From Halovenus rubra (GTDB lineage Archaea; Halobacteriota; Halobacteria; Halobacteriales; Haloarculaceae): 64,000 nucleotides of DNA. Both the position numbers and the translations under genes were made by a program. Every line of letters starts with the position of its first letter. Within the stretch, counting starts at the first letter, position 1. The DNA is taken from assembly GCF_026586665.1 (NCBI RefSeq), contig NZ_JAODIY010000008.1, positions 1-64,000 on the forward strand, given 5' to 3'. Below are positions 7,133-41,329 of the stretch, piece after piece. The notes below the pieces were generated by a model. It made no database searches. It was not told the origin of the DNA and worked only from the letters and a program-made list of their open reading frames with translations.

Positions 7133-8842
7133 TTACAGCACTGTCCCGTGTTTCTTGTCCGGCAAGTCTTTGTCGACAGTCTCGTAGAACTCGAATCGTG
7201 CTTTGAGTTCTTTCCGAAGGGTGCTCGGCGGGACAATCTCATCGATAACCACTTCGCTGGCCATCCGGTGAACGTCAATATCCTCGCGGTACTCCTCACG
7301 GAGTTCTTGCTCACGTTGTTTGCGCTCTTCGGGGTCGTCGATTTCGGCGAGTTTTCGGGCATAAACGGCGTTGATTGCGGCCTCTGGCCCCATGATGGCT
7401 ATTTCGCCGGACGGAAGCGCGATTGTCGACTCCGGTTCGTAAGCTGGCCCAGACATCGCGTAAATACCTGCACCGTACGCTTTCCGGGCCACGACACACT
7501 GTTTTGGGACGGTTGCCGAAGAGGTCGCGTAAATCATTTTCTTGCCTTTTTCGAGAATGGCATCTTTTTCGACCTGTGAGCCGGCCATAAAGCCCGGTGT
7601 ATCACAGAGATACAACAGTGGGACGTTGAATGCATCGCATTTCCAGATGAACTCGGCTGCCTTCTGTGCAGCGTCAGGGAAGATAGCACCGGCGCGCTGT
7701 GCAGGCTGATTGGCGACGATACCGACGGGACGGCCGTCGATGCGTGCAAACCCGGTAAGCATCTCCGGGCCAAACTCAGGCTGGAGTTCAAACCACGACC
7801 CAGCGTCGACCACGCTGTTAATAAGATCTGTCATGTCGTAGCCGCGGTTTGGGTCCTGTGGAATGATGCTATCGATGTCTTTTGGCGACGTTGCCGGAGG
7901 GCGGCCGTCAGTCTGTGGCGGTTGTTTGTCGCTGTTATCAGGGAGGTAGCCGACAAGTTGTGCAACCAACTCGCGGGCGTGTTCCTCGTCATCGGCGACC
8001 AAGTCGGCGCTCCCAGAGTCCTGTGAGTGAACGTCGGGACCGCCTAGGTCATCCATCGAAATTTCTTCGCCTGTCACCATCTCTACCATCCGTGGACTGG
8101 CAATTGCCATTGCAGACATGTCCCGGACCATGATGGTGAAATCCGCGAAAACTGGCGTGTATGCGGCGCCAGCAATACATGGCCCGTAGAGAACACATAT
8201 CTGTGGAACGCGACCGGAGAGCATCGAATGATTATAGTAGTACTTGCCGATACCCTCCCGGTTGGCAAAGAAGCCAGTCTGCTGGTCGATACGACCGCCC
8301 GAAGAGTCCATCAGGTAGAGCACTGGGCGAGCAGTCTTCAGAGCGCGCTGTTGCATCCGGAGGAACTTCTCGACACCCTTGCCAGCCATACTGCCGCGCT
8401 TGACTGTGTAATCGTTGGCCATGAAGTGGATGTCACGGCCCTCGAACTCAGCCCCACCAGTGATGAGGCCGTCGGCCGGAAGTTTGTCGTCAGCATCGAA
8501 CTCAGCGAACCGACCATCCTCAAAAAGAAAGCCGTCCTCGAACCATAGGTCGATTCGGTCTCTAACAAACTCTTTGCCTTGGTCAGGGAGCTGTTCTTTG
8601 TACTTTTTGGGGCCGCCCTCATTGATTTCGGCAATCTCTTTCCAGAGCTCCTCTTCGCGCTCGGTCGGGCCCATCTCCGGTTCGGGCCCCGGAACGTGTC
8701 CGGGCCCATAGTACGGAACCTCAACGAGTTCCTCACCACCGGTAGTCACCACCGTGACGTTATCATAATACTGCGAGGCGAGTGCCTCACCGATAATCTC
8801 GGCCTGTTCTTCGGTCGTGCCCTCGGAGACGTGTACTTTCAT
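7133..8842 (-). CDS. pccB: acetyl/propionyl-CoA carboxylase, carboxyltransferase subunit with N-terminal extension
   Basis: The 569-residue protein is an acyl-CoA carboxyltransferase that moves CO2 from carboxybiotin to acetyl- or propionyl-CoA. It shows YGPCIAGAAYTPVFADF and MVRDMSAMAIASP in the N half, and LLYLCDTPGFMAGSQVEK and CVVARKAYGAGIYAMSG in the C half. Known archaeal PccB proteins are about 510-520 residues. The first 50-60 residues here are additional: a compact beta-alpha-beta-like stretch with TEEQAEIIGEAL followed by a Pro/Gly linker. It starts four bases after the biotin carboxylase subunit stop, so the subunits are co-translated. In haloarchaea this enzyme feeds PHA precursor supply or propionate metabolism. 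Confidence 0.9.
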   Translation of the reverse strand: MKVHVSEGTTEEQAEIIGEALASQYYDNVTVVTTGGEELVEVPYYGPGHVPGPEPEMGPTEREEELWKEIAEINEGGPKKYKEQLPDQGKEFVRDRIDLWFEDGFLFEDGRFAEFDADDKLPADGLITGGAEFEGRDIHFMANDYTVKRGSMAGKGVEKFLRMQQRALKTARPVLYLMDSSGGRIDQQTGFFANREGIGKYYYNHSMLSGRVPQICVLYGPCIAGAAYTPVFADFTIMVRDMSAMAIASPRMVEMVTGEEISMDDLGGPDVHSQDSGSADLVADDEEHARELVAQLVGYLPDNSDKQPPQTDGRPPATSPKDIDSIIPQDPNRGYDMTDLINSVVDAGSWFELQPEFGPEMLTGFARIDGRPVGIVANQPAQRAGAIFPDAAQKAAEFIWKCDAFNVPLLYLCDTPGFMAGSQVEKDAILEKGKKMIYATSSATVPKQCVVARKAYGAGIYAMSGPAYEPESTIALPSGEIAIMGPEAAINAVYARKLAEIDDPEERKQREQELREEYREDIDVHRMASEVVIDEIVPPSTLRKELKARFEFYETVDKDLPDKKHGTVL

Positions 8843-8846
8843 GTTA

Positions 8847-10655
8847 TCACTCCAAAACGATTAGGGAGTCACCCATATCAACGGCGTCACCCGCCTCAAC
8901 CTCAACGCCTTCGACAGTTCCTCCCTGTGGCGCGGCTACATCGTTTTCCATCTTCATCGCCTCTAACACGCAGATGATATCACCCTTTGCAACCTCGTCA
9001 CCTTCGGCTACCTCGATCGAAAGGATTGTCCCCTGCATGTCGGCCGTGATAACACCGTCGGTGACTGATGCGGCTTCGGTGTCGTCTTCGTCACTTCCGG
9101 AACTGCTTGTGGCACTACTCTCACTTGCCGTGTCGTTGTCCGCCTCGGTGTCGCTCTCTGTCACGTCTCCACCGGCACTCTGGGGCAAGTCTTCGAGGAC
9201 AACATCGTGGCGTTGCCCGTCAACCTCGACTGTGAGTTCGTGAGTATCGGTACCGTTGTCGGTTTCAGCTGAAGGTTCAGTTCCCCAACGGTCGACTGCC
9301 TCGGCAATGGCTTCCTCGGCAAGTTCCTCATCGAGATACTTCGTGGTGTGGCTCCCAGTTACGAATGCCTCGTCGGTGAGCATCAACCGGTGGAACGGGA
9401 TTATTGTGTGGACCCCCTCGATATCGTAATGTTCGAGCGCCCGCTTCGAACGCTTGATACACTGCTTGCGGTCGTCGGCGCTTACGATGAGTTTTGCAAT
9501 CATCGAGTCGTAGTCGCCGCCAATTTCGTCACCCTGGTTGACGGCATGGTCGAGACGGATACCAATACTCCCTGGCGGGTCGTACGTTTCCAGTGTTCCG
9601 GGCGTCGGCGCAAAGTCGTCGGCTGGGTTTTCGGCGTTGATGCGGAACTCGATTGCGTGCCCCTCAATCTCGACATTATCCTGCGAGAAGTCGAGTTGTT
9701 CGCCCGCAGCAACTCGAATTTGCCAGCGGACAACGTCGATACCCGTCACCTCCTCGGAGGCAGTGTGTTCGACCTGAATTCGCGTGTTGACCTCCATGAA
9801 GTAGAACTCACCATCCTCGACGAGAAACTCGACGGTGCCAGCGTTGGTGTAGTCGGCCTCGCGAACCCCACGCCGGGCAGCATCGCCAATCTCTTGACGG
9901 AGTTCCTCGTCAAGCACCGGACTGGGAGCCTCTTCGATAACTTTCTGGTGGCGGCGCTGAAGTGAACAGTCTCGCTCGCCAAGGTGGCGGACGTTTCCGT
10001 GTTCGTCGGCAAGAATCTGGACCTCGATATGTTTGGGTGCCGCGAGATACTTTTCGACGTAGACTGAATCGTTGTCGAAGTATGCCTTTCCTTCACGCTG
10101 TGCAGTTTCTAGAGCGTCGTCGACATCTGCGGAATCATGGACAATCTGCATTCCGCGGCCACCGCCGCCACCCTCTGCTTTGATTGCGACCGGGTAGCCA
10201 AACTCTTCGCCGACTTCACGGACCTCTTTGGCCGACTCGACAGGTTCCGTTGTTCCGGGAACGACAGGGACATCAGCCGCCTGCATCGCCTGCCGGGCAC
10301 GTGTTTTCTCACCAAGTTGTGCCATCGCATCACTTGGTGGGCCAACCCATGTTAACTCCTCAGTCTCCTCGATTCGGCTGGCAAATTCGGCGTTCTCCGC
10401 TAAAAAACCGTAGCCGGGGTGGATAGCGTCTGCTCCGGCCTCTAGGGCCGTCTCGACAATCGTTTCTTGGTCGAGATAAGAGTCACTTGCCGGCGCAGGG
10501 CCGACATTGTAGGCTTCATCAGCGTACTCGACGTGTCCGTTGTTGCGGTCCGCTTCGCTGTAAATTGCGACCGTGTCGATACCGAGCTCCTCACAGGCAG
10601 CCATGACGCGAACAGCGATTTCGCCTCTGTTCGCGACCAGAAGTTTATCGAACAT
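8847..10655 (-). CDS. pccA: acetyl/propionyl-CoA carboxylase, biotin carboxylase plus biotin carrier subunit
   Basis: The 602-residue protein has an N-terminal biotin carboxylase domain (residues 1 to about 445) opening with [14 protein letters not shown], with the ATP-grasp glycine loop [12 protein letters not shown] and the [12 protein letters not shown] motif. A low-complexity Ser/Asp/Glu linker follows, then a biotinyl domain with EAMKMEN, whose Lys568 is the biotinylation site 34 residues from the end. It carboxylates biotin using ATP and bicarbonate. It lies between the acyl-CoA dehydrogenase gene (24-base gap) and pccB (4-base gap), forming one operon on the minus strand. Confidence 0.95.
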
Positions 10656-38774: not shown

Positions 38775-39857
38775 TCAAACAGTGAGCGACACGTCTGACA
38801 TGTCCAAAAACGCGGTTTCATAGCCAGAGTGACGTGCAACTTGTGGCGGTGAGTCGACAACAATTGTCAGGTCATCACCAGACATGATACTGTCAACAGT
38901 CGCGCCGTAGTGATAACCACGGTCCGGACCAACGGCCGTCGATAGCGGCCCATCGAAGACGGTGGTTCCGTCGCGTTCGATGGTCGCCGAGAGCGACATG
39001 AGAGGCAAGAAGTACTGGTTGTATGGGGTCCGTGGAGAGACGGTCAGATACGTTCCGTCGGCGTTTTCGCTAGCTGTGAAGACAACCACGGCGTCGGCAT
39101 TCGTCCCCGTTCCGAGAAGTTGCCCCGGCAGTTCGTCTTTCGGTGGAGCGACTGCGACTGGCTGCATCGACATCTCCATTGGGGGGAGTGCATCCGGTTC
39201 GCCACGACTTTCGAGCGGTTGTGCACCACGTGGTTCAATGGGGATTTCGTTGCGCGTGCTCCGTGTGAAATCGAGTGAAAATTGTGCCGTAATAGGGTCT
39301 TTCGAGCGGTCCTCAAGTGCACCAAGCCGTTGTACAGTTGGTTTCCCGGAATCGATAACGAAAGAGTACTCTTCTTGGCTCGGCAGAAGAAAGTTATCGC
39401 CGAAATGGATACCCATCTGCTGTGAGAGCATTGGCCACATCGCTCGTTGTGTGAGTTTTTCGTCATCACGTTTGACAGTAACCTGCAGCCCGGAATCGAC
39501 TGGCAGCACCGTTCCTGTTTCGGTATCCCAGACGGAAGCCATCAAGTGAATTGAGTTGTAACTGTCTTCGACTGCCACCCGCTTTGTCTGATTGCCAGTT
39601 ACTGTCCAGAATCGCTTTGCGTACGTATATGAGAGTCCGATGGTTCTGTCGCCCTTCTGTGCAGTGCCAATCATCGCCATACCCTTGCGATGTGCCTGAT
39701 GATAGACAGCATTGGAACGACTCCACGGAGGAGACGGCGAATCAAACTGTGAGTCAGAGTCTGCATCCGAATCTCCAGAGGAACCTCCAACGAGACACCC
39801 AGACAGCGCGCCAGCGGCTGCGACGCCGCTGGCTCGTAACAGGTCTCTCCGATTCAT
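38775..39857 (-). CDS. Tat-exported lipoprotein related to P19/Tp34 iron-transport proteins
   Basis: The 360-residue precursor starts MNRRDLLRASGVAAAGALSG then Cys21: a twin-arginine signal and a lipobox (LSGC). After an acidic linker comes a beta-sandwich with HLMASVWDTETGTVLPVDSG, then a Met-containing segment and IHFGDNFLLPSQEEYSF, which parallels the P19/Tp34 family motif where Met, Asp and His residues bind metal (HxGDN...L). Such proteins take part in ferrous iron uptake with FTR1 permeases. Its neighbour upstream is a DyP-like exported protein, the pair recalling EfeO/EfeB partners. Confidence 0.7.
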   Translation of the reverse strand: MNRRDLLRASGVAAAGALSGCLVGGSSGDSDADSDSQFDSPSPPWSRSNAVYHQAHRKGMAMIGTAQKGDRTIGLSYTYAKRFWTVTGNQTKRVAVEDSYNSIHLMASVWDTETGTVLPVDSGLQVTVKRDDEKLTQRAMWPMLSQQMGIHFGDNFLLPSQEEYSFVIDSGKPTVQRLGALEDRSKDPITAQFSLDFTRSTRNEIPIEPRGAQPLESRGEPDALPPMEMSMQPVAVAPPKDELPGQLLGTGTNADAVVVFTASENADGTYLTVSPRTPYNQYFLPLMSLSATIERDGTTVFDGPLSTAVGPDRGYHYGATVDSIMSGDDLTIVVDSPPQVARHSGYETAFLDMSDVSLTV

Positions 39858-39933
39858 ATACTTGAGATACACAACGCTTCACATTAACAACTCTGGTATA
39901 GCCCTCGAATGACAGCAGAGTGCCGACCGCATC

Positions 39934-41187
39934 TCAAATCGCCGGGAGCGCGCGCATGTCGCGCGGTGGCACCAGAAAGTTCCCCCGTCTGCGGACGAAA
40001 ATGTACTGCAAAATCCCGTTACCGTGATTTTGCCCGACGCCGTTGCCAGCAAGCGCCCCGCCGGCCATCGCTTTTCGGGTTCGCACGAAGTCGGCTATTG
40101 TCTGCTGGTGTGAAAGGAAGTGAACGCCCGGTCTGTCGCCGTCAACCGTATTGAAGTCTCGACGAAGCAACAGTGGTTCGCCATCTTCGCGTGCCCGTGC
40201 TGCTTTCTGTGCGTGGCCAATGACACCCTCGTTTCGGGCATCTGTCGAGGTCTGCTGGGCAATGTCACCTGCGACACCCGTTGATGTCCCAAGTTTCTCG
40301 CCAATGTTGCCAACCAGTTCGTCGCTTGCGTGCTCGGGGCTAAACAGCTTTGCGACCCGTTGGAAGTGATTATCTTGTTCGAACCACGTCTTTAGCTGAA
40401 CAGTTAACGATTCGACGTGTGTCGTGGTGCCACCCTCGTACGGGCCTGAAGCAACCGTGACACGATCTTCGGACGCCTGACTCTCCGCAAACCCAGATTT
40501 GAATCCCATAAAGAAGGGGGCGTCTTCTGGCAGTTCATCGGGAACACCACCAACTGCTTTGCCTTTCGATTTGGGCAGACCGGGACCGACGAAGCCGGTA
40601 CGTCGTGGCTCACCACGTTGAAAAATTCCGTCGAGCGTCGCTTCCATTTCGACATCGTTTGGGGCCGAAACTGCACCGAGCAGTGCTTCTTCAGCTTCGA
40701 GGACAACATCTGGTCTGTTACTGGCGAGGTGAACCATCGCATCGAAAGAATCGAACGCGGGATCCTCGTCACTCGTCAGCGCTGTCGGTGCAGGAATCGG
40801 TGACTCCGCTCCCACCGTCTCGAAGTACGATGGCGTGTAGCCGACAGTAAATAACAATCCTTCAGAGTCGTATGCGTACGCAGATTCGAGCGACCGAAAT
40901 GCCGATTCGACAGTCGCGCTGTCGTCTTCGTTGGGGTCGGTGACAAGATTCAGCGGGACCAAGACTCGGTGTGCCGGCGGACGGAGGTTTCCGTGCTCGT
41001 CTTCGCCGAGAACAGCATTCCACGCGTGTTGTCGGGCCGGTCGCTTGGCAGGGTCACCCTGTGGAACCGCCTGCGTCTCGGTCGACTCCTGTTCGTCGAG
41101 ACAGGCCGAAAGCGCTGCCATTCCACCCGTCGCAACGAGCATTTGGAAGTACTCGCGTCGGGAGAGTTCTCGGGCCTTGTCGGTCAT
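39934..41187 (-). CDS. Tat-exported DyP-type peroxidase-like protein with altered GXXDG motif
   Basis: The 417-residue precursor carries a Tat-like signal (SRREYFQMLVATGG, with Cys29 as a possible lipidation residue). The rest follows a DyP peroxidase plan: an N-terminal ferredoxin-like domain (LLFTVGYTPSYFETVG), then FFMGFKSGFAESQ (228-232 is GFKSG where DyP enzymes have GXXDG), GPYEGGTTTHVESLTVQLKT, a His (His325 in VIGHAQKA, the heme-ligand place) and LLLRRDFN with Arg342-Arg343, ending FLVPPRD. The distal Asp is replaced by Ser231, so heme binding may persist while peroxidase activity is doubtful. The upstream ATG at 41211 is an alternative start. Confidence 0.7.
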   Translation of the reverse strand: MTDKARELSRREYFQMLVATGGMAALSACLDEQESTETQAVPQGDPAKRPARQHAWNAVLGEDEHGNLRPPAHRVLVPLNLVTDPNEDDSATVESAFRSLESAYAYDSEGLLFTVGYTPSYFETVGAESPIPAPTALTSDEDPAFDSFDAMVHLASNRPDVVLEAEEALLGAVSAPNDVEMEATLDGIFQRGEPRRTGFVGPGLPKSKGKAVGGVPDELPEDAPFFMGFKSGFAESQASEDRVTVASGPYEGGTTTHVESLTVQLKTWFEQDNHFQRVAKLFSPEHASDELVGNIGEKLGTSTGVAGDIAQQTSTDARNEGVIGHAQKAARAREDGEPLLLRRDFNTVDGDRPGVHFLSHQQTIADFVRTRKAMAGGALAGNGVGQNHGNGILQYIFVRRRGNFLVPPRDMRALPAI

Positions 41188-41329
41188 CCTGTCTCGTGAG
41201 ACGGCTTCCATCTATTTTCGGCTTCTGGTGTGTGTATCGAATGCCCGCTGGTCGTATCGGGGGGGTAGTTCCCCACCGGCCGCAGTTCGATTGGGAGCAA
41301 TTTTGAGTGCCGAGATAGAAGTAATTCGT

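Follow-up and report, generated by a model that had tools for sequence, protein, structure and literature searches.

The DUF7405 gene and its downstream neighbor

The window, a stretch of 64,000 nucleotides from Halovenus rubra (positions 1 to 64,000 of contig NZ_JAODIY010000008.1), contains an intact open reading frame that encodes 417 residues from its proposed ATG, with an alternative in-frame ATG upstream at position 41211 (Table 1). The product matches the Pfam family DUF7405 along the entire profile (PF24152, positions 1 to 347 of 347, E = 3e-139, 464 bits against a gathering cut-off of 27.1 bits), and no other Pfam family scores above its cut-off. A Tat signal and possible lipidation, which an earlier reading of the DNA letters (the sequence-only reading) took to place the protein outside the cell, recur across the family: the Tat RR motif is kept in all 83 homologs that cover the N terminus, and the lipobox cysteine, Cys29, in 80 of them. 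These motifs support the prediction of a Tat-exported, lipid-anchored surface protein. A decayed pseudogene is ruled out by the intact frame and the conserved pocket residues described below.

The next gene downstream lies on the same strand and encodes a second lipoprotein, the sequence of which matches PF24041, DUF7350 (E = 1e-51), and PF10634, Iron_transport (E = 2.6e-5). In a structural model of this protein (pLDDT 84.5), residues 62 to 208 match FetP, FtrA, and P19; the superposition on FetP (3nrp) has a Z-score of 13.7 over 135 residues, indicating a P19 fold, and a profile of the protein finds FtrA in the PDB (8vv5, E = 1.2e-6). Conserved histidine and methionine residues in the P19-like domain are H109, M111, M148, M153, and H156. 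A stretch resembling a truncated photolyase copy was also seen in passing.

Table 1. Positions in the window of the DUF7405 gene, its motifs, and the partner gene
Feature	Position	Strand	Basis
DUF7405 protein, 417 aa, DyP-fold lipoprotein	39934..41187	-	Pfam PF24152 and AlphaFold/PDB match
Tat signal and lipobox, SRREYF...ALSAC, residues 9-29	41101..41163	-	Motif only
GFKSG, residues 228-232, equivalent of DyP GXXDG; Ser231 for distal Asp	40492..40506	-	Profile alignment with EfeB GFKDG
His325, predicted proximal heme ligand (EfeB H329)	40213..40215	-	Alignment and conservation
R342-R343-D344: distal Arg (EfeB R347), second Arg, R+2 position	40156..40164	-	Alignment and conservation
Partner lipoprotein, P19/FtrA-like domain and second Ig-like domain (DUF7350)	38775..39872	-	Pfam and model

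Fold and active-site residues

An AlphaFold model of the DUF7405 protein, calculated with 57 homologs in the input (pLDDT 86.4, pTM 0.87), has the two-domain ferredoxin-like fold of DyPs. Alignment of this model to the PDB with VIA-align gives DtpAa as the best match (Z 27.4, rmsd 2.8, 292 residues, 20% identity), with EfeB (6jbn) at Z 26.5; the matches listed are DyPs, and the match spans the mature protein. With Foldseek, the TM-score against single DyP chains is only ~0.5 of the query. Comparison of a DUF7405 profile built from 38 sequences with DyP/EfeB alignments gave probabilities of 97.7% and 97.8% (E = 2.5e-12 and 8.5e-13), and a control comparison with a neighboring, unrelated Tat lipoprotein family aligned 28 columns, covering the signal peptide only. 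The predicted structure therefore confirms the DyP fold that the sequence-only reading had recognized as a pattern.

Standard DyP family models do not detect the protein, as none of PF04261, PF20628, and TIGR01412 matches it. A search of 94 related genomes with PF04261 found nothing, and the same search with TIGR01412 found no true member; a stray partial match in one relative covers only model positions 4 to 77 (E = 4e-5) and probably reflects the Tat signal. PF20628 matches the protein of one relative at E = 0.008, below its cut-off. Searching PDB sequences with the single DUF7405 protein gave zero matches, and searching with the DUF7405 profile gave only weak DyP matches, with E-values of 0.07 and above. 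NCBI annotation names some members 'Dyp-type peroxidase domain-containing protein', and the DyP link of the family is thus not new in itself; no mention of DUF7405 was found in the literature searched.

The Asp of the GXXDG motif is the defining feature of DyPs. The profile alignment pairs GFKSG with GFKDG of EfeB, H325 with H329, and LLLRRDFN with LMLRRGYS, with His325 and the LLLRRDFN segment at the residues where they were first noticed. The replacement of the GXXDG Asp by Ser231, also proposed from the sequence, turns out to be family-wide: among 86 members this position is Ser in 67, Ala in 14, Thr in 2, and Asn, Gly, and Asp in 1 each, so that 85 of the 86 are non-Asp, and the homolog alignment does not place a true GXXDG Asp elsewhere. 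The sole member with Asp (L108; G007:C7, 4864-7062, + strand) is a 733-residue open frame with a divergent DUF7405 domain that reads GFNDQ and carries a long insert separating His325 from the LRR motif. A DyP on a plasmid of Streptomyces sp. NBC_01527 (591-1502) reads FTEG at the GXXDG equivalent, with Glu for Asp.

The other pocket residues are kept. His325 is present in all 87 sequences with a residue at that position; R342, the first Arg of the LRR motif and the residue aligned to EfeB R347, in 87 of 88 homologs; R343 in 88 of 88; and Phe357 in 87 of 88. The sequence-only reading held that the distal Arg had been lost from a GG(S/T)Y...R segment. An Arg is indeed absent from this segment, where the H. 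rubra protein has E259 and most members have Ser, but the absent residue corresponds to EfeB R273, a residue other than the catalytic distal Arg, and the DyP YfeX of E. coli, for which a structure is solved, has Gln at this position. The distal Arg is R342, and the claim that it is missing was wrong. By alignment, DUF7405 has lost one hallmark residue, the GXXDG Asp, and not two. The family resembles DyPs in its fold and most of its pocket; failing canonical DyP status by the GXXDG Asp and the family models, it is most aptly called a sister family of DyPs.

At position 344, two residues after the distal Arg (R+2), 68 of 88 homologs have Asp, 10 have His, and 9 have Ser, which is followed by Glu and accompanied by an insertion. 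The His group forms one clade (support 1.0), as does the Ser-Glu group (support 0.99). An association between Ala at position 231 and His at position 344 is real, but because the His residues are confined to a single clade of 10 it amounts to a single event and provides no evidence for covariation.

Distribution and gene neighborhood

A DUF7405 homolog occurs in 77 of 97 related genomes, often in several copies. A phylum-wide sample yielded members only from the order of H. rubra, and the family is almost entirely haloarchaeal in the genomes searched. Most haloarchaea tested have both DUF7405 and DUF7350, including the genetic model Haloferax volcanii. A plasmid of Streptomyces sp. NBC_00503 carries a homolog (7992-9068, 37% identity) that retains GFHSG and RRD; it starts straight with the mature part and appears to lack a Tat signal.

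The pairing of the two genes is conserved. Ranking loci as close or divergent by the similarity of their product to the H. rubra protein, we found a gene for a P19-like DUF7350 protein within 6 kb of the DUF7405 gene in 48 of 58 close-clade loci, representing 29 of 34 genera, where chance would give a DUF7350 neighbor at ~1% per locus assuming three copies per genome. It lies directly downstream on the same strand in 32 of the 48. These counts come from direct searches, as all-against-all BLAST of neighboring open reading frames loses overlapping genes. None of 22 divergent loci, which do not form a single clade, has a P19-like neighbor, and the partnership is therefore not universal. In raw counts that ignore kinship, 94 genomes comprise 71 with both families, 17 with neither, 5 with DUF7405 alone, and 1 with DUF7350 alone; the corresponding numbers for 57 near-complete genomes, likewise ignoring kinship, are 50, 6, 1, and 0. 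The FTR1 permease (PF03239) is absent from the H. rubra genome (98.7% complete) and from nine relatives, 10 of 10 in all, with positive controls.

Other neighbors recur less often. A DsbD_2 gene lies near seven DUF7405 loci and a heavy-metal (HMA) P-type ATPase gene near two. A second DUF7405 copy in the H. rubra genome (contig C10, 2916-4157, - strand) is 66% identical to the first. It lies in a run of genes that also encodes a DUF7350 protein, another small lipoprotein, a protein of the metallo-beta-lactamase fold, and a membrane protein of the DsbD_2 cytochrome c biogenesis type. By all-against-all BLAST, divergent copies that do not have a P19-like gene (L097, L100, L102, and L104-L107) are recurrently found near a family of ~580-residue FG-GAP/CRTAC1-like proteins, and a CRTAC1 product is annotated beside a Halocatena copy. 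These copies possibly form a different functional branch.

Possible functions and comparison with known systems

The sequence-only reading suggested that the protein, if it still binds heme, may have lost peroxidase activity. This suggestion is unsupported: DUF7405 retains the distal Arg, the proximal His, and the pocket Phe, and DyPs of solved structure still form Compound I when the Asp is mutated to Ala. Opinions differ on whether the formation of Compound I in DyPs is driven by Asp or by Arg (PMC8463360). In DtpB the Asp-to-Ala variant is equivalent to wild type, whereas an Arg variant is crippled, and the Asp of DtpAa makes zero catalytic contribution (PMC8463360). The D143A variant of KpDyP still forms Compound I, at 1.9e3 compared with 6.2e6 M-1 s-1 for wild type, and does so faster at higher pH (PMC6153280). 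With H325, R342, and Phe357 kept in DUF7405, a decayed pseudoenzyme is unlikely, and a natural family that has the His and the Arg without the Asp offers a ready-made test of the Asp-versus-Arg question. The protein could instead be a heme or porphyrin carrier, which would hold heme through H325, perform no redox catalysis after loss of the distal Asp, and store or pass on heme or iron. This possibility is consistent with the missing Asp in 85 of 86 members and with the proposal that EfeB itself is a heme/porphyrin-binding protein that removes iron (PMC9174327). However, the nearly invariant distal Arg and Phe357 would be unneeded for mere binding, and DyPs deprived of the Asp still react with peroxide (PMC6153280; PMC8463360), making a pure carrier rather unlikely in our estimation. 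Reuse of the DyP fold to hold a ligand other than heme, or in a subunit with a structural role, is less probable still. Just 4 of 23 structural families in the dimeric alpha+beta barrel superfamily are known heme binders (PMC7611857), but His325, R342, and F357 are kept in essentially all members of DUF7405 and align with the heme pocket of EfeB.

The residues following the distal Arg suggest how the lost Asp might be replaced. In DtpB, Arg243 and Asn245 contact the ferryl oxygen, and Asn245, at R+2, protrudes into the distal pocket (PMC8463360). An acid or base at or beside R+2 is a feature of the DUF7405 family and would be a plausible substitute. We tentatively extend this idea, with more doubt than conviction, to a relocation of the DyP acid-base catalyst, in which the GXXDG carboxylate would be replaced by Asp344 (His in one clade and Ser-Glu in another) at the place of DtpB Asn245. 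DUF7405 could then represent a second way of building an active site on the DyP fold, one that haloarchaea use alongside a P19-like lipoprotein to handle metals independently of FTR1.

For the function as a whole, we give an even chance to a surface-tethered, heme-dependent DyP-fold oxidoreductase that serves iron or copper handling outside the cytoplasm, a function like that of EfeB but without the FTR1 permease. The starting point is the computationally established fold with its proximal His, distal Arg, and distal Phe, and with the GXXDG Asp lost in nearly all members. Such a protein would bind heme b and react with peroxide or another oxidant through the distal Arg, possibly aided by the acidic or His residue at R+2 (D344 in H. 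rubra). Together with the DUF7350 lipoprotein it would oxidize or load iron (or copper) on the outer side of the membrane, in the manner proposed for bacterial EfeB with EfeO, and the permease of this pathway would not be FTR1. We infer metal handling by the two proteins from their conserved adjacency and co-occurrence, and since the conserved neighbor, which the sequence-only reading did not mention, is P19-like, a metal-related role becomes more likely: the DUF7405 protein probably helps to handle metals outside the cell.

The pair could handle either iron or copper, since both are bound by P19 proteins. The main alternative to iron is that DUF7405 and its partner deliver copper to, or mature, surface copper sites, in the way that Streptomyces lividans DtpA acts with Sco/ECuC for GlxA. 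A copper site is present in P19/FtrA folds (structure titles; PMC9174327), DtpA is a type A DyP encoded in an operon for copper chaperones and required for GlxA to mature (PMC4736821), and in Paenarthrobacter a DyP gene adjoins the gene for a PCu(A)C chaperone. The DsbD_2 and HMA ATPase genes point in the same direction, but these copper-linked neighbors are a minority and occur mostly within the genus of H. rubra, and the Pfam family that the partner matches bears the name Fe2+ transport protein, although this is a name only. We regard a dedicated copper role as improbable, at about the level of the heme carrier. The DUF7405/DUF7350 pair offers a way into the function of two uncharacterized families and suggests a metal pathway that operates outside the cytoplasm and does without FTR1.

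The P19/FtrA-FTR1, FetMP, and EfeUOB iron systems share the P19/FtrA/FetP fold with the neighbor of DUF7405, whereas at the haloarchaeal loci the adjacent position is taken by a DyP-fold lipoprotein, and the genomes tested lack FTR1. Relative to EfeUOB in particular, FTR1/EfeU is missing, and a DyP-fold gene does stand beside one for an extracytoplasmic metal-binding partner, P19-like instead of EfeO. The type B DyPs DtpB and DypB have a polar residue at R+2 (Asn245 and Asn246) where DUF7405 has Asp or His, and their Arg-driven formation of Compound I shows that the Asp can be dispensable; in contrast to DUF7405, they keep the GXXDG Asp, are cytoplasmic and shorter, and are ~15% identical to it. 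The closest functional parallel is EfeB beside EfeO, an iron-uptake pairing of a DyP exported by the Tat route with a metal-binding protein outside the cytoplasm (PMC9174327). DUF7405 differs from EfeB and other type A DyPs (E. coli EfeB, S. lividans DtpAa) in its Ser or Ala for the distal Asp, its lipobox, its P19-like partner, the lack of a detected FTR1, and its escape from DyP family models. It shares with them the fold, Tat export, the proximal His, the distal Arg in the LRR motif, the GF(K/R)xG loop, and a gene that adjoins one for an extracytoplasmic partner of the iron-binding type.
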